Shown here one piece after another: positions 6,225 to 19,302 of a DNA stretch of 64,000 nt. The notes beneath the pieces are model-generated. The model did no database searches, was not told the DNA's origin, and saw nothing but the letters and a program-made list of their open reading frames with translations. The position numbers were made by a program, and so were the translations under genes. Location: the NCBI RefSeq assembly GCF_019740355.2, contig NZ_CP091819.1, positions 1,488,001 to 1,552,000 on the forward strand. Reading direction: 5' to 3'. Origin of the DNA: Paracrocinitomix mangrovi (GTDB taxonomy: Bacteria > Bacteroidota > Bacteroidia > Flavobacteriales_D > Crocinitomicaceae). Position 1 is the stretch's first letter, and each line of letters begins with the position of its first letter.

Positions 6225-6258
6225 AAGCCTTCCGTCTTTATGATGGAGGGCTTTTTTT
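6225..6258 (+). terminator. Terminator hairpin overlapping the apparent 5' end of moaA
   Basis: GCCTTCC (6227-6233) pairs with GGAGGGC (6245-6251, one G-T pair) and is followed by a run of seven T (6252-6258). The ATG codons at 6240 and 6243 fall in the loop and stem, arguing against their use as the moaA start. Confidence 0.8.
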
Positions 6259-6263
6259 GTAAG

Positions 6264-7253
6264 GTGAAGAACAAACAACTCATAGATAATTTTGGTCGAT
6301 CGCATGATTACCTACGTATTTCATTATTGGAAAGATGTAATCTGAGATGCACCTATTGTATGCCTGAAGAAGGGATTCCTCTCCGAGATAAACAATTGTT
6401 TATGAGTCAGGAAGAGTTGTTTGATATAGTAGACACATTTGTTTCTCTGGGTGTCAACAAGATCAGATTAACAGGGGGAGAACCACTTATCAAGAAAAAC
6501 TTTGCTCAAATCTTAGCTCACCTAGCTACACTTAATGTCAATTTAGCCATTACTACCAATGGAATTTTATTGGACAAATACTGGAATGAATTAAAAGACT
6601 CTGGTTTGGATACCCTTAACATTAGTCTAGACACCTTAATTGAAGAACGCTTCAATGCTATAACCAGACGATCATATTTTGAGCGTGTTTTAAATAACAT
6701 TGAGGAAGCAATAGCTAGAGGTTTTGATGTAAAAGTAAATGTGGTATTGATTAAAGGTACTAACGAAGATGAAATCTTAGATTTTATTGAATTTACCAAA
6801 AACAGAAATGTATCAGTAAGATTCATAGAATTTATGCCTTTTGATGGCAATCAATGGGATTGGAGTAAAACAGTAAGTTTTAAATACATCATTGATACAG
6901 TTTCAGAAAAATACGGTTCTGCTTTGCAAAAACTAGAAGATGGTGAAAATGCCACTGCAAGGAATTATAAAATAAAAGATTTCAAAGGTAGTTTCGGAAT
7001 CATCTCATCTGTGACAAATCCTTTTTGTGATTCGTGCAATAGACTTAGACTTACAGCTGACGGTAAAATAAAAAATTGTCTTTTTTCTTCTGAAGAAATT
7101 GATCTACTAAATGCTCATAGAAATGGACAAAATTTAGAAGACCTCATTCTTAAATCAGTTAAAAGTAAACATGCCGAAAGAGCAGGATTAAAATCATTTG
7201 ATGCAGATGATTTTTCCTCAGAAAATAGAAGCATGGTTTCTATAGGAGGTTAA
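6264..7253 (+). CDS. moaA: GTP 3',8-cyclase MoaA
   Basis: Radical SAM enzyme for the first step of molybdenum cofactor synthesis, converting GTP to (8S)-3',8-cyclo-7,8-dihydro-GTP. The N-terminal cluster motif CNLRCTYC gives C25, C29 and C32 when counted from GTG 6264, almost the E. coli spacing (C24, C28, C31). The second 4Fe-4S cluster motif is NPFCDSCNRLRLTADGKIKN followed by CLFS, and the protein ends in the conserved GG. LTGGEPL is the SAM-binding GGE motif. The frame also offers ATG at 6240, but that codon lies inside a terminator hairpin and would add eight non-homologous residues, so GTG at 6264 (329 residues) is preferred. The 3' end overlaps the opposite radical SAM gene by 4 bases. 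moaC, moaE and moeA are not in the window. Confidence 0.92.
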   Translation: MKNKQLIDNFGRSHDYLRISLLERCNLRCTYCMPEEGIPLRDKQLFMSQEELFDIVDTFVSLGVNKIRLTGGEPLIKKNFAQILAHLATLNVNLAITTNGILLDKYWNELKDSGLDTLNISLDTLIEERFNAITRRSYFERVLNNIEEAIARGFDVKVNVVLIKGTNEDEILDFIEFTKNRNVSVRFIEFMPFDGNQWDWSKTVSFKYIIDTVSEKYGSALQKLEDGENATARNYKIKDFKGSFGIISSVTNPFCDSCNRLRLTADGKIKNCLFSSEEIDLLNAHRNGQNLEDLILKSVKSKHAERAGLKSFDADDFSSENRSMVSIGG

Positions 7254-8317
7254 AATAGATTTAACTGCTGTCCTGGTCTCACAAACAAATCAGTATTAAA
7301 AGTAAATTCCGGTTTTACCATTAATTTGGACCTGTTTATTTCAAATAAGTCCTGGATCATTTTAGCCATACTCCCTTTTCCTCTCATCCTACCTCCGTCT
7401 ATTGTATTTGACAAAACTCCTCCATTAGAACTTTTAATATGATTCAATACCTTATTAGCTCTTTCCGGATAAGTCTTTTCTATCCAATCGGTAAAAATAT
7501 CACCAACTGATCCATTTAATCTTACCATAATATAATTTGCCCATTGAGCGCCTGCATCAGCTGCTTTTTTCAATATTTCAGGAATCTCATGATCATTTAA
7601 ACCGGGAATAACAGGCCCTATCATAACTTGTGTTGGAATTCCATTCTTCACTAACGCCTCTATTGTTTTGAACTTATTCTTATTAGACGAAGTTCTAGGT
7701 TCTAACTTAGCTCTCAATGATTCATCAATTGATGTGATACTGATATTCACTAAAACCAAATCATCTTTTGCCAATTCACTTAGTATATCAATATCTCTTT
7801 CAATCAGACTATTTTTTGTAATAATACCAACAGGATTTTTATACTCGTTGAGGACCTTCAATAATTTTCTTGTCAATTCAAACTTTCGCTCAGCCGGCTG
7901 ATAACAATCTGTGTTTCCTGACAGCATGATTCCTTCTACTTGCCAACTTTTTTTATCCAAAAACTTTCTTAATAATTGTTCAGCATTGGGTTTATACATT
8001 ATTACACGTTCAAAATCCAGGGCCGGTTCATAACCCCAAAATTCATGTGTTGTTCTGGCATAACAATAGGCACATCCATGCTCACATCCTTGATACGGAT
8101 TCATTGACCAATTCAAATAAATATCTTTGCTGGGCACCTTATTTACTAACGACTTTGGAAATACCTCCAAATATTTTGTCTTGACACCTTGTTCAAGTTC
8201 TTCCAGGCTAAAATCACTTAAATCATGATCAGCTTCATAATGGAACTTATTAAACTTGTTTTGAACAGTAGACTGAGCTCCTCTACCCTTTAATTTTAGT
8301 TGTTTCTTTTGATTCAT
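7250..8317 (-). CDS. PA0069-family radical SAM protein (SplB-like)
   Basis: A 355-residue protein with the radical SAM cluster motif CEHGCAYC (CX3CX2C) in the family signature NPYQGCEHGCAYCYAR. The upstream YLNWSMNPYQG and the later GNTDCYQPAE motif are typical of PA0069-type proteins, which are related to spore photoproduct lyase but lack a known reaction. The N-terminus (KLKGRGAQSTVQNKF) also matches this family, which often begins with a GRGA motif. It is convergent with moaA, overlapping by 4 bases. The start is ATG at 8317, with a TATATTTG element about 60 bases upstream. The function is unknown; a role in DNA or nucleotide repair is only suggested by its relatives. Confidence 0.85.
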   Translation of the reverse strand: MNQKKQLKLKGRGAQSTVQNKFNKFHYEADHDLSDFSLEELEQGVKTKYLEVFPKSLVNKVPSKDIYLNWSMNPYQGCEHGCAYCYARTTHEFWGYEPALDFERVIMYKPNAEQLLRKFLDKKSWQVEGIMLSGNTDCYQPAERKFELTRKLLKVLNEYKNPVGIITKNSLIERDIDILSELAKDDLVLVNISITSIDESLRAKLEPRTSSNKNKFKTIEALVKNGIPTQVMIGPVIPGLNDHEIPEILKKAADAGAQWANYIMVRLNGSVGDIFTDWIEKTYPERANKVLNHIKSSNGGVLSNTIDGGRMRGKGSMAKMIQDLFEINRSKLMVKPEFTFNTDLFVRPGQQLNLF

Positions 8318-8373
8318 AAGATCTATAATGCACTTCTACCGCATTGATCTTTACAACTACCAAATTGTGATTA

Positions 8374-8381
8374 CAAATATA
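8374..8381 (-). promoter_or_regulatory. -7 promoter element for the PA0069-type gene
   Basis: On the minus strand this reads TATATTTG, a full match to TAnnTTTG, about 57 bases upstream of the ATG. No clear TTG was seen at the -33 position. Confidence 0.4.
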
Positions 8382-8447
8382 TTACATTATCACCTTGAAT
8401 AAAAATTAATTTAAAGACCTTAAAACCAGATTTACTCTTTATTTTTA

Positions 8448-9008
8448 ATGAGAATGAATGATTTTGGTGTCATCTTACTTGCCGGAGGTAAAAGCAGCAG
8501 AATGGGAGAAGACAAGGGTTTAATGAGCTTGTTTGGAAAACCCATGGCTGAATATGTACTTGAAAAAGTAAATGAGTTAACGAACAATGTTATCATTATT
8601 ACTGAAAACTCAAATTATTCTCAATTTGGTTATCCCATTTACAAAGATTTAATTAAAAATTGTGGTCCCTTAGGAGGTATTTACACTGGTTTAATGAAAT
8701 CAGAACATGACCTCAATTTGATTGTAAGTTGTGACATTCCTTATGTTAAAAGTGGGCTCATCAAATTTTTGTATTATCAAACAGAAGATTTTGAAGTAAC
8801 TGTGCCCATGTACAACGATAGAATTCATCCCTTAATCGGATTCTACAAAAAATCATGCATTGAAAAAATTAAATACAATTTGGATGAGGAAAAATATAAA
8901 GTAGCTGATGTATTTAAATATTGCAAGACCAATGTAGTTGATACAGATGAATTTGACGAGATTGTATTTAAAAATGTCAATTCTAAAAAGGATATTCAGC
9001 CGTTTTAG
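8448..9008 (+). CDS. mobA: Molybdenum cofactor guanylyltransferase MobA
   Basis: A 186-residue nucleotidyltransferase that attaches GMP to molybdopterin to form the guanine dinucleotide cofactor. The N-terminal GTP-binding motif LLAGGKSSRMGEDKG is diagnostic, and GPLGGIYTGL and the metal-binding SCDIPYV follow in the expected order and spacing. It is a cytosolic enzyme, and the length is normal. It lies one gene away from moaA, the intervening radical SAM gene being on the other strand, so the two Mo-cofactor genes are not co-transcribed. An alternative ATG two codons downstream (8454) is possible and would leave the protein intact. Confidence 0.9.
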   Translation: MRMNDFGVILLAGGKSSRMGEDKGLMSLFGKPMAEYVLEKVNELTNNVIIITENSNYSQFGYPIYKDLIKNCGPLGGIYTGLMKSEHDLNLIVSCDIPYVKSGLIKFLYYQTEDFEVTVPMYNDRIHPLIGFYKKSCIEKIKYNLDEEKYKVADVFKYCKTNVVDTDEFDEIVFKNVNSKKDIQPF

Positions 9009-9099: not shown

Positions 9100-10131
9100 A
9101 TGAACATTTGTTTTATCATGTACCCGTGGGAGAATGTTGATCCCGATAAAGACTCAACATTAAGAATTATTCATGAGTGTATAAAGCGAAAACACAGGGT
9201 TGTAGTAGCAACGCCTGCTGGTTTAACCATGCGTAATAGTGTGACAAACGTATTTGGAAAAGTTTTGACAGCTCCCTCACCATTTCCGGGAACTATTCCT
9301 GCATTTTATAAAAAAGTAAAACTAAAAGACAGAATGTTGCCTTTGGCAGGATTTGATGTTGTGTTTATGCGTGCTAACCCACCTTTGGACATCATGATGC
9401 TAAATTTTCTTGACTCTGTTAGACAAGATGTTTTCATCCTAAATGACATCCAAGGACTAAGGGAAGCCAACAACAAATTATATACGGCAAGTTTGTACGA
9501 CCCAACAAATGACATAATTCCTATCACACATGTTTCTAAAAACAAAGAGTTTCTTAAAAAGACCATTTTAGAATCAAAACAAGACAAAATGATCATGAAG
9601 CCTTTAGATGGTATGGGCGGACGTGGAGTTATTGTTATTGAAAAAGATGCTGTTCAGAATATAAATTCACTATTAGATTTTTACATTTCAACTGGTGATG
9701 GAAACTCAAACTATGTGATTTTACAAGAATATATTGAAGGAGCAGAAAATGGAGACGTTCGTGTCTTGATGCTTAATGGTGAACCAATTGGTGCCATGAA
9801 AAGAATTCCTGCAGCTGATGATCATAGATCAAATTTCTCAGCAGGAGGAAGTGTTAAAAGACATGCTTTGACAAAAAGAGAAAAAGATTTATGTAAGTAT
9901 ATCGGACCTAAACTTGTTGAAGATGGACTTTATTTTGTTGGTCTTGACATTATCAACGGAAAACTAATTGAGGTAAATGTTTGCAGTCCCGGTGGAATTG
10001 TAAATATCAACAAACTACACAAAGTAAAACTACAATCAAAAGTAGTAGACTTCTTAGAAAACGTAGTCAAATACAAATCAATAGCACAACAAAGAAAATC
10101 AGAGTTTAGAGAAACAGTTCAAAATGCATAA
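9100..10131 (+). CDS. Glutathione synthetase (GshB)-like ATP-grasp ligase
   Basis: A 343-residue ATP-grasp ligase. The N-terminal pre-ATP-grasp domain has NICFIMYPWENVDPDKDST, the order seen in GshB, and MRANPPLDIMM parallels the GshB RKDPPFD segment. KPLDGMGGRGVIVIEKD is the ATP-binding loop, and YFVGLDII with LIEVNVCSPGGI carries the C-terminal Mg/ATP residues. GshB joins glycine to gamma-glutamylcysteine, but the window has no gshA. The next gene overlaps by 8 bases and encodes a predicted peptidase/amidohydrolase, so the ligase may instead act on a dedicated peptide or amino-acid conjugate. That substrate is inference. I recall the ligase, FGase and QEGLA trio being neighbours in proteobacteria too. 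Confidence 0.8.
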   Translation: MNICFIMYPWENVDPDKDSTLRIIHECIKRKHRVVVATPAGLTMRNSVTNVFGKVLTAPSPFPGTIPAFYKKVKLKDRMLPLAGFDVVFMRANPPLDIMMLNFLDSVRQDVFILNDIQGLREANNKLYTASLYDPTNDIIPITHVSKNKEFLKKTILESKQDKMIMKPLDGMGGRGVIVIEKDAVQNINSLLDFYISTGDGNSNYVILQEYIEGAENGDVRVLMLNGEPIGAMKRIPAADDHRSNFSAGGSVKRHALTKREKDLCKYIGPKLVEDGLYFVGLDIINGKLIEVNVCSPGGIVNINKLHKVKLQSKVVDFLENVVKYKSIAQQRKSEFRETVQNA

Positions 10132-12118
10132 GTATTCTATTGAACAAATTATTCAAAAGATTGAAAAGGGACATTCTTTTGAAGCTGAAGACACAGATGG
10201 ATCACTTTACATAAAGATTACAGAGTACGTGCCTTATGTTTGTACAGCTATTCATGACGGACATAACTTTAGAAGTGAATTACTTGACAATATTATCCAC
10301 TCAGATTATGAACGCTGGTATGAAGAAGATCCCAAGACACTAGATTTTATATCGTCTTTTCCTATTGTTATTGCAGGGAAAGATTCAAGATTTGAATATG
10401 ATTTGAACAGACCCCCTGAAACTGCAGTATACAAAGATGCTTGGGGAAAACCAGTCTGGAAAAAACCTTTGACAGAAAGAGAAAGAGAGACAAGCCTTTC
10501 TAAACACACTAATTTTTATCGTGTAATTCACGCACTTGTCACTAAACTTGAAAAGTTATTCAAAGCCAGTGTAGTTTACGACATTCATTCTTACAACTAC
10601 AAAAGACATAAAAGACAAGTACCTGTTTTCAATATAGGAACAGCAAATATTAATAGAAGAAAATATGCTGTTGTTAAAAATGATTTTCTTAAAGGATTAG
10701 CTTCAATTGAGATTCCTCATGTTAAAAACATCACTGCAGAAAATGATGTATTTCAGGGAAATGGATATCTGCTTAAATACGTAACTGAACATTTTGACAA
10801 CACTTTAGTTTTAGCGACTGAGGTAAGCAAAGTGTATTGTGATGAGGAAACAGGAGAATATTTTTCGCAAGTAATAGACTCAATACGTGAAGGGTTTAAA
10901 AGAGTAATTCTTGAAAACGCACTTTTGTTCACTAAAAAACATTCTAATTTGAAGGTAAAAAACTCTAATCTTTTACTTTCTTCTGAATTGGATGAAGCCA
11001 TTTTAAAAGTGGATAAAATGTTGTACAAATTGGTAAGGAATTTTGAGGTTTTAAAATTCGTCAACCCAATCAACATTGAAGCTGAAAAGAAAAAATTCAT
11101 TAAAAGCAAAGGGCTTTACAAACCACAATTTAAATACAAGCACCTCAACCTAAACCCGTTTTTAATGAAGCGTAAGTTGATGAACTTACCGGTTGAGCAA
11201 ATCCAGGATGTCAATATTCAAAACCTCTACAAAGGAGTTATAAATGCTTACTGTGATAAAATTGAGTTAATCGCATCAATTGGAACTGAAAATTTCCTTT
11301 ATAATTCACTTAGATATTTTGGTGAGCCCACAAAGAAAGATATAGCCAACGCACAATTCATTCTGCATTTTAATCATAACGCAGAGCTTAATCAACCCAT
11401 GATGAATGACACTGAAGCTTTATCGGTGCTTAAAAAAGAACTTAAATCTTACGAGTTTGAATGTAAAATAAAGCTATCAGATAAACTGGCTGCCAAAGCA
11501 ATGGTGGTAAACTCTGAGAAGACGCTTTATTTGAAAAAAGGAGGAAGGTTTACTGAAAAAGAAATACACTCTTTAGTTCATCATGAAATTGGTGTTCACA
11601 TGGTAACCACCATGAATGCAGATAGTCAACCCATTAAATTATTTTCAATGGGAATGCCTGTAAACACTAAAACTCAAGAGGGCTTGGCTATCATGAGTGA
11701 ATATTATTCAAATACGCTCACGGTAAAGAGATTAAAAGAGCTTTCACTAAGAGTTGTAGGTATATCATCAATGATTCATGAACATGATTTTAATGCTACG
11801 GCCAATATGTTGGTAAATGAATATGGTATGAGTTTAGAATCAGCCTTTTATTTAACAACAAGAATATTTAGAGGAGGTGGATTTACCAAAGATTACCTTT
11901 ATTTAAGCGGATTAAAAGAAGTTTCTACTTTAATGAAATCTGATGAGGGATATGAGGATTTAATGGTTGGTAAAACACATCACAACTATTTGGGATTAAT
12001 CAATGAAATGATTGATAGAAAATTGATTATTCCTCCTAGATATAGTAATCCGGCATATCAACACAACCTCAATGATAATCCTTTGATTGATTACATCATT
12101 GAGAATATTCAAGAGTAG
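10124..12118 (+). CDS. N-formylglutamate amidohydrolase-like / QEGLA (DUF1704) metallopeptidase fusion
   Basis: A 664-residue two-domain protein. Residues about 30-275 resemble N-formylglutamate amidohydrolases: HDGHNF, DPKTLDF, FEYDLNRPPE, DIHSYN and FNIGTANINR occur in the family's order. Residues about 300-660 are the 'flavohemoglobin expression-modulating QEGLA motif' domain (DUF1704), related to the eukaryotic tubulin carboxypeptidase MATCAP. HEIGVH at 487-492 is the HEXXXH zinc motif, and QEGLA at 518-522 supplies the downstream glutamate. No signal peptide is seen, so it is probably cytosolic. The start lies 8 bases inside the ATP-grasp gene, implying coupled translation. In other bacteria the two domains are often separate neighbouring genes. 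The zinc sites look intact, the substrate is unknown, and the family name does not prove a role with flavohemoglobin. Confidence 0.82.
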   Translation: MHKYSIEQIIQKIEKGHSFEAEDTDGSLYIKITEYVPYVCTAIHDGHNFRSELLDNIIHSDYERWYEEDPKTLDFISSFPIVIAGKDSRFEYDLNRPPETAVYKDAWGKPVWKKPLTERERETSLSKHTNFYRVIHALVTKLEKLFKASVVYDIHSYNYKRHKRQVPVFNIGTANINRRKYAVVKNDFLKGLASIEIPHVKNITAENDVFQGNGYLLKYVTEHFDNTLVLATEVSKVYCDEETGEYFSQVIDSIREGFKRVILENALLFTKKHSNLKVKNSNLLLSSELDEAILKVDKMLYKLVRNFEVLKFVNPINIEAEKKKFIKSKGLYKPQFKYKHLNLNPFLMKRKLMNLPVEQIQDVNIQNLYKGVINAYCDKIELIASIGTENFLYNSLRYFGEPTKKDIANAQFILHFNHNAELNQPMMNDTEALSVLKKELKSYEFECKIKLSDKLAAKAMVVNSEKTLYLKKGGRFTEKEIHSLVHHEIGVHMVTTMNADSQPIKLFSMGMPVNTKTQEGLAIMSEYYSNTLTVKRLKELSLRVVGISSMIHEHDFNATANMLVNEYGMSLESAFYLTTRIFRGGGFTKDYLYLSGLKEVSTLMKSDEGYEDLMVGKTHHNYLGLINEMIDRKLIIPPRYSNPAYQHNLNDNPLIDYIIENIQE

Positions 12119-12120
12119 AA

Positions 12121-13107
12121 CTACATTCTACCCATCATTTTTTTAATCTTATCATTGGCAAAAGCTCCTTGATAAGCCAAACTTATTTCAAACCCTCCTC
12201 TACCACTTGTGTATGTGTTTAGTGTTGAAATATTAATGTCGTATGTCATGTTTAAATGCCATCCATGATACCTCATTCCAATACCGGTAACTGCAGCATC
12301 ACCTACCCTTATTCCTAACAACAATCTCAAATCAAAATCATCATCAAAATTATATTTGGTAGTGGTCATCAATAAAAACTCAGATGCAGCCTTTTGGTAC
12401 ATGTACAAAAACGCAGGTTTCAATGAGAATTCATCATTAAATGCTATTTCAGATCCAAAATTAGCTTTCCAAATCATTGGCATTGGTTCTGTTTCACCTA
12501 TGAATGTTTGATTTGGTAAAGTAATATGCCCCAATGAAAATCCAATGTATGGACGTAGTTGTTTTCCTAAAAATTGATAATAAACACCCCAGGCTCCATC
12601 TAATCTATAAATACTACTTGAGCCTATATTTTCCCCATTACTTAAAGAATTATCAAATCCTCCGCTAGTAGATGAATACTGCTCATCAAAAAATAAGTTG
12701 TTTACCTGAAAACTCTTATTGAAAAATCCCAGCTGTAGTCCTGTTGTTAACTTGTGATCAGATTTTGGATCAATAACATTATACGAGGTAGAGACCATAA
12801 AATTAAAAGTCCTGAATGTTGGAGCTCCAGCCTGGTTATTTATTATATAACCTCCTATCCCCCATCTTTCTTTTAATCTTGCATCATAAGACGCATAAAT
12901 TGACGAGAAAGGTTTTGTTGAAATTTGTCCCCATTGTGATCTATAGAGTGTGGCTGCTCTCCAATCTGCATCCTCCGTAATATCCTGACCCGTTAAAGCC
13001 GGATTTAAATAAAGCGAAGATTGTTCAAATTGGCTGTTATGAAAATCCTGAGCTGAAACATTTACAGACAGTACTATTGTGCTTATAATTACCGTTAATT
13101 TTTTCAT
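12121..13107 (-). CDS. PorP/SprF family outer-membrane protein
   Basis: A 328-residue protein with signal peptide (residues 1-19, ending VSAQ). The family signature QDFHNSQFEQSSLYLNPALTG comes directly after it in two overlapping parts, followed by many short amphipathic beta strands. PorP/SprF proteins are outer-membrane beta-barrels that hold T9SS type B cargo such as SprB at the surface. The gene lies 9 bases downstream of the giant adhesin gene on the same strand, the standard adhesin-anchor pairing, so it very probably anchors that protein. It is convergent with the QEGLA gene, with only two bases between the stops. Confidence 0.9.
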   Translation of the reverse strand: MKKLTVIISTIVLSVNVSAQDFHNSQFEQSSLYLNPALTGQDITEDADWRAATLYRSQWGQISTKPFSSIYASYDARLKERWGIGGYIINNQAGAPTFRTFNFMVSTSYNVIDPKSDHKLTTGLQLGFFNKSFQVNNLFFDEQYSSTSGGFDNSLSNGENIGSSSIYRLDGAWGVYYQFLGKQLRPYIGFSLGHITLPNQTFIGETEPMPMIWKANFGSEIAFNDEFSLKPAFLYMYQKAASEFLLMTTTKYNFDDDFDLRLLLGIRVGDAAVTGIGMRYHGWHLNMTYDINISTLNTYTSGRGGFEISLAYQGAFANDKIKKMMGRM

Positions 13108-13116
13108 TTTCTTTCC

Positions 13117-16100
13117 TTATTTAATAATTGAAAAATCACCGGTTACTGAATACTCAAAACCGTCTGTTGTTACACCTTCAAAAACATATATATACACCCC
13201 AACTGGTTGCAATTGTCCTTTATAATATCCATCCCAGCCGTCTGAAGGATCAGTTGTCCTAAAAAGTTCGTTACCCCATTCATTGTAAATTCTAAGTTCA
13301 AATTGATCAAATGGCCCACCTCTTACATATAACACATCATTATGTCCATCATTATTTGGAGTAAAGGCATTTGGTATTGCGGGTTCATTTGAGTTGGCAT
13401 TAGGATCAATTACCTCAATTATCATTTGAGCTGTATCCGTACAACCAGAGGTATCGGAGACGGTCAATATAACAGTATAACTACCAGGATCCGGATATGT
13501 GTAAATTGTATCCTGACCGTTATATGTTCCAGTCATGTCTCCAAAATCCCAATCCCAACTATCTGCATTTAAAGATGAATCTGTAAAAGTTACTACACTA
13601 TCCATAAAAGGAGAAGTATTGTCCACAGTAAAGTCGGCAACCGGTAAAGGATCTAGAACAATATCAAATACTGATTGATCAGTACATCCATCTGAATTAA
13701 CTACATCCACGGTCAATGTATATGTGCTATCAGGTAAATAGTTATTGAAAACTGTAGTAGCATTAGTTGAATCAAAAGTACCATCACCTAAATCCCAATA
13801 TATCTGATCAATTGCAGAACCAGTAGATGTTGCATTAAACGTTAACAATGATTGATCACAGTAAAAATTATAATCAACGCTTAAATCTATATTAGGCAAG
13901 ACAGACACCAGTAGTGAATCCGTTGAAACACCACAAGAAGTTGTCAGATTTAAATAAACATAAATTGGTCCTAATGTATCACTTAAGGCAGGCGAATATG
14001 ATGTAGGGTTTCCGGTTGAACTTCCAATTGTTCCAGCACCATTAGTTGTCCAACTTATTCCTCCTGTAGAAACATTTCCAAATAACAAAACTAATCCTCC
14101 GGCGCAAGCGGTTGCGTCATTTCCTGCATCTACAGTTGGTAAGTCAAGAAAATAAACGTTGATTGAATCAGATTCAGCCAAACATGAGCCATTATTTGAA
14201 GATGTCAATATAAATAATAACTGCCCTCCGGATGTATCTGCAATACTAGGCTGATAGTTTGTAGAAGGTGAAAGGTTGTCAGGGATAAAAGTACCGGTTC
14301 CATTCGTTGTCCAAAATCCTCCTGAACCACCACCTGATACTGTACCACTCAGAGAAAAGAAATTATCGCTTAAGCAAATATTTAAGTCAGGTCCAGCATT
14401 AACACTAGGTGCTGGTGTTATAGTTATTAGTAAAGTATCTTCAATAAAAGGACAGGATTGCATATTTGCTGCATTTAAATACAGCTCAACATTTCCGTTA
14501 GTTTCATCAGTATTTCCCGGAATATAAATTGCATTCAAATCGTTTGTATCCGGTAGAAACAATCCATCTCCAGCTGTTGTCCATATTCCTGCTCCACTTG
14601 TAACAGTTCCAACCAGGTTTATAGAATCATTATTAGCACATACCACAACATCAGCTCCTGCATTGACATTTGGATTTGGAGTAAAAAATACCGTAATAGT
14701 ATCAGCATCTCCTCCACAAGGTCCTGTATCTGATGTCAAAATCAAATCCACATTACCTGCGGTTATGTCTGCACTACTAGCCACATATGTAGTCACCAAA
14801 TTCGTATCTACAAAAATCCCAGTACCCAAACTAGTCCAGTCACCATCAACATTTCCAGTAATAATTCCATTCAATGAAACTGCATTTCCGGCACAAATAA
14901 TTTTATTTCCACCTGCATCCGCTTGAGGAGTTGTTTCGAGATTTATAGTAATTACTTCTCCAAATGGCAAACAACTCCCTACATTGGTTGGAGTTAATGT
15001 TAAATTGAATACTCCACTCACTATATCATTGGGCCCTGGAGTATATATTGCATTTAAATCGTTTACCGACGGTGAAAAGATTCCATCTCCTGAAGTAGAC
15101 CATACTCCAGTAGAAGTTGCACCGCTAATTGATCCATTTAATTGAAGGGTTAATTGATCGCAAATTGTTGTATCACTTCCAGCGTCAACAATTGGTCCTA
15201 CACTAAAACTTACAACAGCATCATCTGAAACTGTTACACATGCGTTAGTTGAAGTCAAAGTTAAAGTAACTGAACCTGCAATTGTATCTGCAGCAGAAGG
15301 AACATAGATTGCATTTAGCTGAGTATTACTACCAAAAAATTGTCCACTACCAGAGGTAGACCAAATTCCTGTTCCTGCACCTCCGGTTACATTTCCTCCT
15401 AATGGAACGGGATTATTTGCACAGTAAGACAAGTCTGATCCTGCAGTTACGACAGGAATATCTGTTAGAGTTATCATAATGGTATCAATGTCTGGCGAAC
15501 AACCTCCATTTCCTGTAGAAGTCAAATACAAGAAAAACTGACCATTCGTACTGTCTTGAACAGAAATATTGTAAACAGCATTTAAATCTGTGTTATTAGG
15601 AGTAAAGTTTCCTGTACCTGAAGTACTCCAAACACCAGTTGTTGTAACTCCACTGACATTTCCTGACAAATTCACTTGATTATCAGTTAAACATAAAATT
15701 TGATCTATGCCTGCATCCACAACCGGACCTGGGTCAATGGTAATTATTATCTGATCAGAATTACTGCATGACCCCGTTGCAGATAAATCAAGGGATACGG
15801 TTCCATTTACTATATCATTAGATCCAGGTACATATAATGCATTTAAATCAGTATTGTTTGGTATAAAGATTCCATCACCACTTGAAGTCCAAATACCCGT
15901 GGTAGTAGAACCTGAAATAACACCTGATAAATTTGCTGAATCACTACTACAAATAGAAAAATCCAATCCGGCATTTACTGTAGGTTGCGAAGTAATTGAC
16001 AATAAAATTGAATCAACTACCGCATTACAATTTCCATTAGCCGTAGTAGTTAAATATAGTGTTACAAAACCTGCAGTCTCATCTGCTGCACTAGGAGTAT

Positions 16101-19100
16101 ATATTGCATTTAAATCTGTGTTGTTAGGATTAAAATTACCAGTTCCAGATGATGTCCATTGCCCTGTTGAACTTCCTCCGCCAACAATACCATCCAAAGG
16201 CAAAGTTTCTCCAATACATATTGTAGTATCCAATCCTGCATTTGAAGTAGGTGAAGGCGTAAGATTTATGATTAAAGTATCTTGTTCACTATTACATGTT
16301 CCATTATCAGTAGAAGTCAATAAAATTACAATTGAACTCAATAATGTATCAGCTCCAGACAAAGTATACGTGGTATTCAAATCTGTGTCAGATGGAGAAA
16401 AACTTCCACTACCGAAAGTGGACCAGATACCTTGCGACGCTCCAGCCGAAATAGTTCCATTTAAGTTTACAACTCCATTGTTAGCGCAAATATTTTGAAC
16501 AACACCTGCACTAACTTGCGGAGCAGGCGTAAAACTCACCAATAAATTGTCAGTCACCACCGGACAATTTCCATTATTTGTAGAGGACAATGTCAAAATA
16601 ACTGAACCATTTGCTGTGTCAGCTGCACTTGGCAAATAATTTGCAGACAAATTTGTACTCGTTGGGCTAAAAGAACCTGAACCACTAGAACTCCAAATTC
16701 CAGAAGTTGTAAATCCTATTACAGATCCATTTAAAGGAACTTCTAAATTGGCGCAGATTGTCGTATCAACTCCAGCATTCACAATTGGTTCAGTTGTTAT
16801 CAATACACTCATAGAATCTATATCTGCCTGACAACTTCCATTATTAGTTGAAGTCAAAATTAAAAATACATTTCCCGCAGTTACATCTGCAGCACTTGGG
16901 GTATATGTAGCATTAAGATCTGTATTTGAAGGTAAAAATGTTCCCGATCCTGAGGATGACCAGATCCCAGTTGAAGAACCTCCTGTTACATTTCCGCTTA
17001 AAACCACATCCGGATTTGACTGACATACAATTTGATCAGTACCTGCATTTGCAAAAGCTGCCGGAGTAATTGTGACAGTTTTTTGGTCGAACTCAGGAAA
17101 GCAAGACCCATTTGCAGTTGAAGTCAACGTTAGTATTACTGTACCATTATTTAGGTCATTTGTTCCTAAATTGTAAGTTGCATTGAGATTAGTATTAGAT
17201 GGTAAAAACATACCATCACCAGATGTTGACCAAATTCCTGTTGTAGATCCTCCAGTAACACTTCCTGACAATAAAATTGACCCATCTGTTGCACATATTG
17301 AAGTATCATTACCTGCCAGCACATAAGGAATTGGAGAAAAAGTTAGCACAACATCATCTGCATCAGCAGTACAACCATTATTAAATGTAGAAGTCAAAGT
17401 AAACGTAAGTGTACCCGCCGTTGTATCGGCTGAAGTTGGAGTGTAAATGGCATTTAATGTTGAATCATTAGGAGAAAAAGTTCCACTCCCAGAAGTAGTC
17501 CAGACACCAGTTCCCGAACCTCCTAAAACAGATCCATTTAATTGTACAACATTGTTTGCACATGATGAAAAATCTGATCCTGCATTGGCATTTGGGGCTG
17601 GTACATAAGTGATCACCATTTGATCATTCATAATTATACAACCATTTGTAGATGTCAATGTAAGCGTAACTGACCCTGCTGTTGTATCCGCATTTGACGG
17701 AATGTAATCCGCATTAAGATCAGTATCAGAAGGTGAAAAAGTTCCCGATCCAGAAGTTGACCAGATTCCGGTGGAACCACCATCTGTAACTGAGCCACTT
17801 AATGAGGTTGTAGCATTATCAACGCAAACCAACTGATCAGGTCCTGCATTTACTGTAGGAGCCGGAATAATGGTTATAATCATATCTTCACTTACAGTTT
17901 GACATCCATTGGTTGAAGTAAGTGTCAACGTAACTGTTCCTGCCAAAAAATCAGCAGTTCCAGGTGAATACGTTCCAGTAAGATCTGACGAATCAGGAGT
18001 AAAAAATCCTGTTCCAGCAGAAGACCAATAACCAGTTGTTGTTCCACCTGTAATTGAACCAACCAAATTAGCAGGTGTACCAACACAAACAGATTGATCT
18101 GGACCGGCATCCACTACAGGTAACAACTCAATTGTTACAATCATTTGATCAGTAACATCTGTACATCCAAAAGTATTTGATGATGTAAGTGTTAAAGTAA
18201 CTGTACCTGCTGTAATATCAGCAGCACTTGGTGTATATACTGCATTCAAATCTGAAGCTGAAGGCGAAAAAGCACCTGTTCCACTGCTACTCCAGACTCC
18301 TGTTGATGTACCTCCACTCACCGATCCGGAAAGATTTACATCTGCTCCTTCACAAATTGTTTGATCAACACCTGCATCTACAACAAAAGCAGGCACATCT
18401 GTCACTTGAATTGTATCTAAACCTCCGGGACATCCAGTAGAATCTGTTACAATTATGGAGTAAGTACCAGCAGAGACATTTATAGTAGAACTTGTTGCAG
18501 TAGTACTCCATAAGAAATTATAAGGCGGAGCTCCACCACTTGCATTCACAACAATATTAGTAGATCCTCCCTGACAGGTATATGAAGGATCAGGAATAAT
18601 ACTAGCAGTAATACTGTCATTAAGATATACGACAACGGTATCAGAACCAACACCTACTGTACAAGCAGAAGGGATACCAGAGGCAACATATACAACAGAA
18701 TCAGGAAATCCAACTTGAGGTGTAATAGTTACCGTATCACAAGCATTTGTACAATTTAAATATGAATCAAAATCTCCAGGTAATCCAGGAGAAATAGAGG
18801 TCCAATTAATAGAAGATTCCGTTAATCCACTTATTGAAATGTCTTTGGAACAATTGAGGTTTAGACTAACATCAGGTGAAGCGGACACTGCTTCAGAAGT
18901 AGTAATTGAATATGTTGGTGAATCTCCACCTGTTTTACAAAACGAAATACAAAAAGAATTCATTCCATTTATACACTCTGTAGCACCGAGTAAAATTGGA
19001 GTACCACAATTAATTTGATAAGTTGTTCCGCCTGGAGGTGCTGGACTTTGCACATCAAAAACCAGTTGATTTGCATTTGGGTGAGTTATTACTTCAAATT

Positions 19101-19302
19101 TGATACAAGCATCAGCACCTGACGCTCCACAACAATATCCATTTCTGGCACTTGAAACGGTCCAAGTTGTATCAGGATTTGAAGATAAATCGACAGTAAA
19201 ACTAGTGGTACCCAAGTCGCATGGAATGCATTGCGCATTAACATTAGTGCTAATACTAAAGACAAGAAATAGTAGAAAATTATATATGTATTTTTTTTTC
19301 AT
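13117..19302 (-). CDS. Giant repeat adhesin, T9SS type B (SprB-like)
   Basis: A 2061-residue surface protein. After a signal peptide (residues 1-23, ending VNAQ) comes a Cys-rich N-terminal region (about 24-220), one SprB-type repeat (about 230-300, GGAPPYNFLWS...SAGTYSIIVTDSTGC), and 17 degenerate Ig-like modules of 83-92 residues (about 300-1800). Each module runs NAGxDxxIC...LxGxVxGG...GIWSTSGSGTF...TDLNAxYxPSAAD...GxVxLTLTST. Most modules have one cysteine early and one late, suggesting a disulfide per unit. Two PKD-like domains follow (WDLGDGTF, WDWDFGD). The end is the gliding-motility-associated type B sorting domain (IPNAFTPNNDGHNDVLYV). It should be exported by T9SS and work as an adhesin or gliding filament. 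A PorP/SprF gene lies directly downstream. Confidence 0.9.
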   Translation of the reverse strand: MKKKYIYNFLLFLVFSISTNVNAQCIPCDLGTTSFTVDLSSNPDTTWTVSSARNGYCCGASGADACIKFEVITHPNANQLVFDVQSPAPPGGTTYQINCGTPILLGATECINGMNSFCISFCKTGGDSPTYSITTSEAVSASPDVSLNLNCSKDISISGLTESSINWTSISPGLPGDFDSYLNCTNACDTVTITPQVGFPDSVVYVASGIPSACTVGVGSDTVVVYLNDSITASIIPDPSYTCQGGSTNIVVNASGGAPPYNFLWSTTATSSTINVSAGTYSIIVTDSTGCPGGLDTIQVTDVPAFVVDAGVDQTICEGADVNLSGSVSGGTSTGVWSSSGTGAFSPSASDLNAVYTPSAADITAGTVTLTLTSSNTFGCTDVTDQMIVTIELLPVVDAGPDQSVCVGTPANLVGSITGGTTTGYWSSAGTGFFTPDSSDLTGTYSPGTADFLAGTVTLTLTSTNGCQTVSEDMIITIIPAPTVNAGPDQLVCVDNATTSLSGSVTDGGSTGIWSTSGSGTFSPSDTDLNADYIPSNADTTAGSVTLTLTSTNGCIIMNDQMVITYVPAPNANAGSDFSSCANNVVQLNGSVLGGSGTGVWTTSGSGTFSPNDSTLNAIYTPTSADTTAGTLTFTLTSTFNNGCTADADDVVLTFSPIPYVLAGNDTSICATDGSILLSGSVTGGSTTGIWSTSGDGMFLPSNTNLNATYNLGTNDLNNGTVILTLTSTANGSCFPEFDQKTVTITPAAFANAGTDQIVCQSNPDVVLSGNVTGGSSTGIWSSSGSGTFLPSNTDLNATYTPSAADVTAGNVFLILTSTNNGSCQADIDSMSVLITTEPIVNAGVDTTICANLEVPLNGSVIGFTTSGIWSSSGSGSFSPTSTNLSANYLPSAADTANGSVILTLSSTNNGNCPVVTDNLLVSFTPAPQVSAGVVQNICANNGVVNLNGTISAGASQGIWSTFGSGSFSPSDTDLNTTYTLSGADTLLSSIVILLTSTDNGTCNSEQDTLIINLTPSPTSNAGLDTTICIGETLPLDGIVGGGSSTGQWTSSGTGNFNPNNTDLNAIYTPSAADETAGFVTLYLTTTANGNCNAVVDSILLSITSQPTVNAGLDFSICSSDSANLSGVISGSTTTGIWTSSGDGIFIPNNTDLNALYVPGSNDIVNGTVSLDLSATGSCSNSDQIIITIDPGPVVDAGIDQILCLTDNQVNLSGNVSGVTTTGVWSTSGTGNFTPNNTDLNAVYNISVQDSTNGQFFLYLTSTGNGGCSPDIDTIMITLTDIPVVTAGSDLSYCANNPVPLGGNVTGGAGTGIWSTSGSGQFFGSNTQLNAIYVPSAADTIAGSVTLTLTSTNACVTVSDDAVVSFSVGPIVDAGSDTTICDQLTLQLNGSISGATSTGVWSTSGDGIFSPSVNDLNAIYTPGPNDIVSGVFNLTLTPTNVGSCLPFGEVITINLETTPQADAGGNKIICAGNAVSLNGIITGNVDGDWTSLGTGIFVDTNLVTTYVASSADITAGNVDLILTSDTGPCGGDADTITVFFTPNPNVNAGADVVVCANNDSINLVGTVTSGAGIWTTAGDGLFLPDTNDLNAIYIPGNTDETNGNVELYLNAANMQSCPFIEDTLLITITPAPSVNAGPDLNICLSDNFFSLSGTVSGGGSGGFWTTNGTGTFIPDNLSPSTNYQPSIADTSGGQLLFILTSSNNGSCLAESDSINVYFLDLPTVDAGNDATACAGGLVLLFGNVSTGGISWTTNGAGTIGSSTGNPTSYSPALSDTLGPIYVYLNLTTSCGVSTDSLLVSVLPNIDLSVDYNFYCDQSLLTFNATSTGSAIDQIYWDLGDGTFDSTNATTVFNNYLPDSTYTLTVDVVNSDGCTDQSVFDIVLDPLPVADFTVDNTSPFMDSVVTFTDSSLNADSWDWDFGDMTGTYNGQDTIYTYPDPGSYTVILTVSDTSGCTDTAQMIIEVIDPNANSNEPAIPNAFTPNNDGHNDVLYVRGGPFDQFELRIYNEWGNELFRTTDPSDGWDGYYKGQLQPVGVYIYVFEGVTTDGFEYSVTGDFSIIK
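13897..18400 (-). repeat. Array of 17 degenerate ~265-bp repeats encoding Ig-like modules
   Basis: Seventeen consecutive in-frame units of about 250-275 bases can be counted from the recurrent NAGxD...LxGxV...TDLNA...LTLTST pattern. At DNA level short identical blocks recur, such as GCATTTAAATC (plus strand) near 14531, 15051, 15581, 15839 and 16108. The units are not identical, so this is an old array. The boundaries are approximate. Confidence 0.85.

Follow-up and report, generated by a model that had tools for sequence, protein, structure and literature searches.

A misnamed two-gene module of a GshB-fold ATP-grasp ligase and an FGase-MATCAP metallohydrolase in Bacteroidota and Gammaproteobacteria

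Two overlapping genes in a 64,000-nucleotide stretch of the Paracrocinitomix mangrovi genome (contig NZ_CP091819.1, positions 1,488,001 to 1,552,000; the whole stretch is called the window here, and coordinates are window positions) form a conserved module that automatic annotation misnames. The upstream gene (9100..10131, + strand) encodes a 343-residue ATP-grasp ligase of the GshB fold, and the downstream gene (10124..12118, +) encodes a 664-residue fusion of an N-formylglutamate amidohydrolase (FGase) domain with a MATCAP domain. Both assignments come from open reading frame (ORF) calls, Pfam/NCBIfam matches, alignments and structural models. The frames share 8 bases (10124..10131, +), which confirms the layout given in an earlier note on this DNA. 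The names attached to the module, 'glutathione synthetase' and 'flavohemoglobin expression-modulating QEGLA motif protein', are misleading. The coupling of ligase and hydrolases is strong and well supported. As to function, we put at roughly 45% the reading that the pair is a dedicated writer-eraser module that adds and removes acidic tails in osmotic or glutamate adaptation.

The first line of evidence is genomic. Searching named genomes with a MATCAP alignment turned up at least 592 relatives; locus counts rest on the best 80 loci among them. Judged by record title, most of these belong to Bacteroidota and Gammaproteobacteria, while Verrucomicrobiales, Desulfocapsa and Spirochaetia contribute one record each. 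The ligase (tblastn, >200 bits) is present in 73 of the 80 loci, including the Verrucomicrobiales locus, L064, and in 73/73 it lies upstream on the same strand, an arrangement that goes beyond chance. Taking the first possible start, the ligase and hydrolase ORFs overlap in 57 of the 71 loci where both were called. FGase and MATCAP occupy one ORF in 67 of the 80 loci, are divided between two frames in one (L084) and are adjacent and separate in 11; MATCAP stands alone in one (L095). Two genome samples were also counted. Among 247 evenly drawn Bacteroidota, MATCAP occurs in 15 and a ligase-subfamily match of at least 396 bits in 14, and all 14 ligases sit within a few kb of MATCAP; among 321 Gammaproteobacteria, MATCAP occurs in 48 and the ligase in 17, 15 of them beside MATCAP. 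The tabulated neighbours thus place the three domains widely together in both groups, and the earlier suggestion of a shared substrate for the two fused hydrolases is supported. The ligase and the hydrolases very probably share a product.

What kind of protein is the fusion? Both proposed profile searches on it gave matches above the gathering cut-off: PF05013 (FGase) at residues 37-225 (10232..10798, +; 51.1 bits, cut-off 28.9) and PF08014 (MATCAP/DUF1704) at residues 323-661 (11090..12106, +; 312.7 bits, cut-off 27). It also passes the QEGLA model TIGR02421 (354.1 bits, cut-off 338.65) and does not reach the HutG deformylase model TIGR02017 (16.7 vs 278.75). The FGase domain carries an HDGH motif at residues 44-47 (10253..10264, +), a DLNR motif at 93-96 (10400..10411, +) and a DIHSYN motif at 153-158 (10580..10597, +); H44, G46, D93, L94, N95, D153 and H155 are invariant in 38 of 38 aligned fusions, and H47 in 10 of 10 sequences of a further alignment. 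The MATCAP domain has HEXXXH at residues 487-492 (11582..11599, +) and QEGLA at 518-522 (11675..11689, +), exactly where the earlier note had placed them. Here H487, E488, H492, Q518, E519, G520 and A522 are invariant in 38/38, and HEXXXH together with the (Q/E)EG glutamate in 10/10 of a separate alignment, so that the presumed metal ligands are kept. E519 is the presumed third ligand, in line with what the EEG glutamate does in its human counterpart (PMC10499314; this and the other papers identified by PMC number are cited from partial text). An AlphaFold2 model of the fusion (mean predicted local distance difference test [pLDDT] score 93.1, predicted template modelling score 0.91) was compared with known structures using VIA-align. 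Its best counterparts are human MATCAP 7z5g (Z 26.3, root-mean-square deviation 2.7 A over 293 residues) and the FGase 2q7s (Z 24.7, 2.3 A, 236 residues), followed by a DUF885 protein (Z 17.0), pancreatic-type carboxypeptidases (Z 12.8 or less) and M32-type carboxypeptidases (about Z 12). In a profile search the HEIGxH and EGLA motifs and the KD..YL core line up with human MATCAP at about 20% identity. The fusion thus combines an FGase of M14-like fold with a MATCAP, both of them metallohydrolase domains whose active-site motifs are conserved.

The ligase matches PF02955 (3.3e-55) and PF02951 and passes NF009110/PRK12458 (437.6 bits, cut-off 408), a subfamily that we call type A. It falls under the cut-offs of the GshB equivalog TIGR01380 (237.8 vs 299.05) and of the RimK model TIGR00768 (89.1 vs 143.4 bits). 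Its predicted structure (pLDDT 88.2) has the GshB fold, with best match to GshB 1gsa (Z 33.5) and then to RimK (25.5) and ArgX (23.6). The RSNFSAGG motif lies at residues 243-250 (9826..9849, +), with R243, N245 and G249 invariant in 34/34. The NVCSPGG loop at residues 293-299 (9976..9996, +) has glycine (G298) in 72/72 A-type and 8/8 B-type ligases, a position occupied by threonine in all 19 true GshB proteins compared, which come from host genomes of the kind that have both ligases (19 of 20 retrieved sequences, L126 having been removed by a motif filter). Between 72 operon ligases and these 19 sequences 45 positions are conserved alike, among them R91, K126, K167, R235, D283, E291 and N293, and 26 are at least 90% conserved within each group yet different. 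The change from SPT in true GshB to SPG in the operon ligases is one of the 26; several others are conservative.

These comparisons bear on the obvious alternative, that the ligase is GshB and the fusion breaks down glutathione or formylglutamate. The fold, the 30% identity to E. coli GshB and a pass of the looser GshB model PRK05246 (284.6 vs 272) all speak for it. Set against them are the failure of TIGR01380, the 26 positions conserved differently and the gene content of the hosts. The window genome is complete (a single contig of 4,365,762 bases), and GCS2-type gshA (PF04107) has 0 matches in it; the E. coli-type gshA model (PF04262) has a single match, below cut-off, 39 residues long and with internal stops. 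Thus no gshA adjoins the operon, as the earlier note had said, and none is recognised anywhere in the 4.37 Mb. PF04262 at E 0.001 likewise matches none of the 15 MATCAP-bearing Bacteroidota genomes, and GCS2-family proteins occur in 6 of these 15, the window genome not being one of them. In 34 named host genomes searched, true GshB above cut-off was found in 27, all from gammaproteobacterial genera, and 24 of these 27 also have a second match of 224-248 bits, the range of the operon ligases. The second matches were assigned as operon ligases by score, not by individual location, and in one genome (G259) the second match lies outside its MATCAP locus, L072, which lacks the ligase. In the other seven hosts, from Bacteroidota genera, the only match is in the operon-ligase range. 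Because gshA is not recognisable and 24 of 27 gammaproteobacterial hosts have both kinds of ligase, this is not a glutathione operon; a housekeeping GshB was rejected, and ordinary glutathione metabolism is very improbable. With the co-occurrence described above, the results support the earlier view of a coupled make-and-trim pair as opposed to general glutathione synthesis, and no finding of the kinds that the earlier note named as refuting it turned up.

Both M14-fold enzymes and FGases hydrolyse amides in which the leaving part has a free carboxylate; residues of this sort are added by ATP-grasp ligases such as RimK and TTL. Together with the trimming of polyglutamate by the human MATCAP family, this chemistry makes a writer with a double eraser plausible. 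In such a module the ligase would activate a carboxylate as an acyl-phosphate and attach an amino acid, glutamate or some other acidic residue being the likeliest; the acceptor would be the terminus of a peptide, of a protein tail or of a glutamyl oligomer. Working as a double exo-hydrolase on amides with a free-carboxylate leaving group, the FGase-MATCAP protein would strip the added residues. Between them the two proteins would control how long a reversible tail becomes, or its level, in the way that RimK and RimB act on ribosomal protein S6, and they might work alongside RimK in osmotic or glutamate adaptation. We infer both the added residue and its acceptor, and the same holds for the product, which the earlier note proposed to be a glutamyl or peptide conjugate; the RimK links described below and the deglutamylase activity of human MATCAP-family enzymes make such a conjugate more likely.

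A RimK-family gene stands no more than about 2.1 kb from the core in 5 of 118 loci (L052, L057, L079, L138 and L149), and the relatives in L079 and L138 are S6-glutamate ligases by NCBIfam (464 and 446 bits, cut-off 331). Among the matches listed for the gammaproteobacterial sample, RimK falls within 3 kb in G309, G432 (88 bp) and G490. G309 is the same locus as L149 and G490 the same as L138, so that G432 is the only new case and brings the modules close to a RimK-family gene, complete ones and partial ones together, to six; about 0.08 such cases would be expected by chance (38 focal genomes with RimK) against the 3 found, two of which had been seen before the test. In the same listed matches RimK is present in 30 of 31 sampled Gammaproteobacteria with a stand-alone MATCAP and in 104 of 273 without MATCAP, counts that are not corrected for relatedness. 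'Stand-alone' here means a frame without fusion length and no ligase match; one genome with a fusion-length frame and no ligase match (G385) and one with a broken gene (G307) were excluded. None of the 12 stand-alone MATCAP loci retrieved contains an FGase or a ligase. In G307 (C45:2571-3666) the MATCAP gene is interrupted by several stops.

The putative osmotic link comes from neighbours and from published expression data. Eight of 118 loci (L049, L057, L065, L079, L080, L083, L090 and L138) have an MscS-type gene no more than about 3 kb away, a count for which no background rate was computed; Pfam confirms those in L065, L079, L080 and L138. In L138 the ligase, a CorA-like gene, an MscS channel, RimK and an AstE/AspA-like deacylase stand in a tight row, after which come a divergent MarR-like gene and ectA-ectB (the CorA and MarR names were given by reading the sequence). 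In Photobacterium sp. SKA34 (L072, 7229-9059), ectA and ectB lie directly upstream of an FGase-MATCAP fusion, in a locus without ligase. In Photobacterium damselae grown at 1% as compared with 3% NaCl, RimK is up 52.2x, RS17020 ('GshB') 38.4x and the next-numbered RS17025 (QEGLA) 27.5x (PMC10308900). In Vibrio vulnificus, VV2_1203 (COG3930) and VV2_1204 ('glutathione synthetase') stand consecutively in a list of clade-2-specific genes (PMC3091676).

In 16 of the 80 loci (L060, L073-L077, L080, L083, L089, L090, L099, L103, L104, L108, L110 and L112) a small maoP-like gene, named by reading its sequence, clusters on the 5' side of ligase A. Its C-terminal tail is acidic (at least 5 D/E in the last 15 residues) in 10 of 15 tails, including those of Photobacterium and not those of Thalassotalea. 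This tail could possibly be a substrate of the module.

Several observations weigh against the writer-eraser reading. Neighbours of the RimK and MscS kinds occur at a minority of loci, came to attention post hoc and mostly stand beside incomplete modules. A complete module near RimK is seen only in L052 and L057, which belong to the same genus, and the L057 relative is RimK-family only (168.9 vs 331 with the S6-ligase model). L079 has no ligase, L138 has neither MATCAP nor FGase, and L149 and G432 are stand-alone MATCAPs. Since most RimK-linked loci are thus incomplete, our confidence in a writer-eraser module is slightly reduced. RimK is also not required, being present in 4 of 15 Gammaproteobacteria with fusion and ligase among the matches listed. 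Its excess in Bacteroidota (13/15 vs 68/232) shrinks to 10/12 vs 33/49 inside the class of the window genome, and we have set this enrichment aside as a main support. In P. damselae, that RS17020 is the operon ligase and not true GshB is something we infer from its number adjoining that of the QEGLA gene. The ligase is missing from 7 of the 80 MATCAP loci (L049, L059, L072, L078, L079, L086 and L095), of which L086, from Spirochaetia, starts at a contig end; conversely, two gammaproteobacterial ligases (G472 and G490) occur without MATCAP. Finally, other neighbours hint elsewhere: polyamine genes in 8/80 loci, a clear dicarboxylate symporter in 10/80 and a rhodanese-family gene in 8/80.

Known FGases work on small N-acyl amino acids, and the substrate could accordingly be a metabolite and not a protein tail. 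The ligase would then make an N-acyl or thiol dipeptide (like N-acetylaspartylglutamate or glutathione) from imported Glu or Asp, and the FGase-MATCAP protein would recycle it. The symporter-family gene (PF00375, GltP-like, under the GltP cut-off), which lies 5' of the ligase in ten flavobacterial loci, fits this scheme, as do the rhodanese-family gene between ligase and FGase, the AstE/AspA-like deacylase next to ligase B in L031 (a locus in which no FGase turned up) and again in L138, and the ectAB genes near L072 and L138. However, symporter and rhodanese neighbours were observed only in Flavobacteriaceae-type loci, the symporter is absent beside the window operon, and relatives of MATCAP work on protein tails (PMC10499314). 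We regard such a small-molecule pathway as somewhat unlikely.

The polyamine neighbours raise another alternative, in which the ligase would attach a polyamine to a glutamyl or peptidyl group, to be freed again by the hydrolases. These biosynthesis genes, named by reading the sequence, come from several lineages (L043, L045, L054, L068, L072, L075, L076 and L093), and the agmatinase SpeB is up 11.1x in the same low-salt data of P. damselae (PMC10308900). They are found in 0 of 18 other loci, the window included. Moreover, hydrolases of the MATCAP and M14 types should require a carboxylate on the leaving group, and a polyamine offers none. Polyamine conjugation seems improbable. It would be about equally improbable that the genes are co-transcribed with separate roles, the MATCAP-FGase protein as a protease or regulator and the ligase on an unrelated substrate. 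The seven ligase-less loci and the two of 17 gammaproteobacterial ligase genomes without MATCAP speak for it; the upstream, same-strand and mostly overlapping ligase of the other 73 loci, and near-perfect co-occurrence in two phyla, speak against it.

The module comes in two types. Type I, that of the window, has the order ligase A, FGase, MATCAP. Type II has the order FGase, then an N-terminal domain joined to MATCAP, then ligase B. Profile comparison (hhalign 95.7%, E 9.5e-9) identifies the joined N-terminal domain as a degenerate FGase, from which the catalytic motifs are absent. The second version would thus comprise a B-type ligase, a separate FGase and a protein of dead FGase and MATCAP, at times adjoining the first version. 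In a Marinobacterium locus without ligase (L049) the fused FGase also lacks the HxGH motif. Because fusion persists with a degenerate FGase in type II and L049, contact between FGase and MATCAP seems to matter even without FGase catalysis. Ligase A is found together with ligase B in L023 and L024, and tandem ligases in L139 and L140, which suggests related successive reactions. A 914-residue frame in L030 suggested a MATCAP-ligase fusion, which was rejected: a high-GC stretch, spuriously read, makes up the N-terminal part of the frame, and MATCAP lies in another one. L034 and L035 have a different GshB-like ligase (27-28% identity) near a protein of about 1800 residues, L034 additionally a GCS2 protein and a DNase II-like protein.

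The window genome has a second MATCAP/QEGLA gene, a stand-alone one of 399 residues (C1:2067481-2068563; loci L002 and L036), with neither ligase nor FGase adjoining at that locus, and elsewhere a RimK homologue of 269 bits, under the cut-off of 331. On the 5' side of the ligase (6240-9008) lie MoaA, a PA0069-family radical SAM protein (- strand) and a MobA-like protein whose gene, on the same strand as the ligase, stops 91 bases before it. On the 3' side (12121-19302, - strand) a PorP/SprF family protein adjoins a 2061-residue protein with many similar repeats, noted by eye, which is perhaps a surface protein of type IX secretion or gliding.

If the writer-eraser reading is right, bacterial MATCAPs acquire a functional setting, and a link between ATP-grasp ligase, metallocarboxypeptidase and osmotic or glutamate homeostasis becomes directly testable. 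It would also hint at a possible origin of the enzymes that trim tubulin tails. There is a practical warning as well, in that genomes may be credited with glutathione synthesis that they lack. The name 'flavohemoglobin expression-modulating' presumably goes back to the QEGLA protein PA3697. PA3697 has been cited as a regulator of fhp (PMC8070244). The matches listed in our literature search include no paper describing a ligase-FGase-MATCAP module; Iyer et al. 2009 (amidoligases), which possibly mentions it, is outside that coverage.

In eukaryotes the tubulin-tail code has ATP-grasp TTL enzymes as writers and MATCAP and M14-type enzymes as erasers; the module may be the bacterial equivalent of these writers and erasers. 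One could go further and see bacterial MATCAPs as general tail-trimming carboxypeptidases, each with an ATP-grasp ligase (RimK for the stand-alone QEGLA proteins, ligases A and B for the fusions), in a counterpart of the tubulin-tail code that responds to the osmotic state by means of reversible glutamyl tails or oligomers; we consider this broader scheme doubtful. The likeness to the eukaryotic MATCAP/TMCP tubulin carboxypeptidases lies in the fold and in the HEIGxH, EGLA and KD..YL core, whereas the bacterial protein is distant in sequence, fused to FGase and coupled to a ligase, and tubulin is not an expected substrate. The human MATCAP-family enzymes take off C-terminal residues and also shorten polyglutamate chains (PMC10499314). 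Compared with E. coli GshB, the ligase shares the fold and the 45 common positions but differs at the 26 others, SPT to SPG included, in the missing gshA of the window genome and in its coexistence with true GshB elsewhere. The FGase domain in turn has the fold and the HxGH, DLNR and DxH motifs of N-formylglutamate amidohydrolase/HutG but scores far under the HutG model and is joined to MATCAP.

By analogy, the module seems to belong with the known ligase-plus-eraser systems and resembles RimK-RimB polyglutamylation. RimB takes off the glutamates that RimK added to RpsF, and a hybrid RimB-RimK protein exists (PMC11957791). RimB is a retropepsin-like eraser of S6 polyglutamylation, and in the related RloA-RloC operon the Rlo proteases are needed in hypo-osmotic stress (PMC12239564). 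As in that system, an ATP-grasp protein is encoded with a hydrolase, here in 73 of 80 loci. Unlike RimK, the ligase belongs to a GshB-fold subfamily, and whereas the RimB-type eraser is a retropepsin-like aspartic peptidase (PF05618), the hydrolases of the module are the metallohydrolases PF05013 and PF08014.

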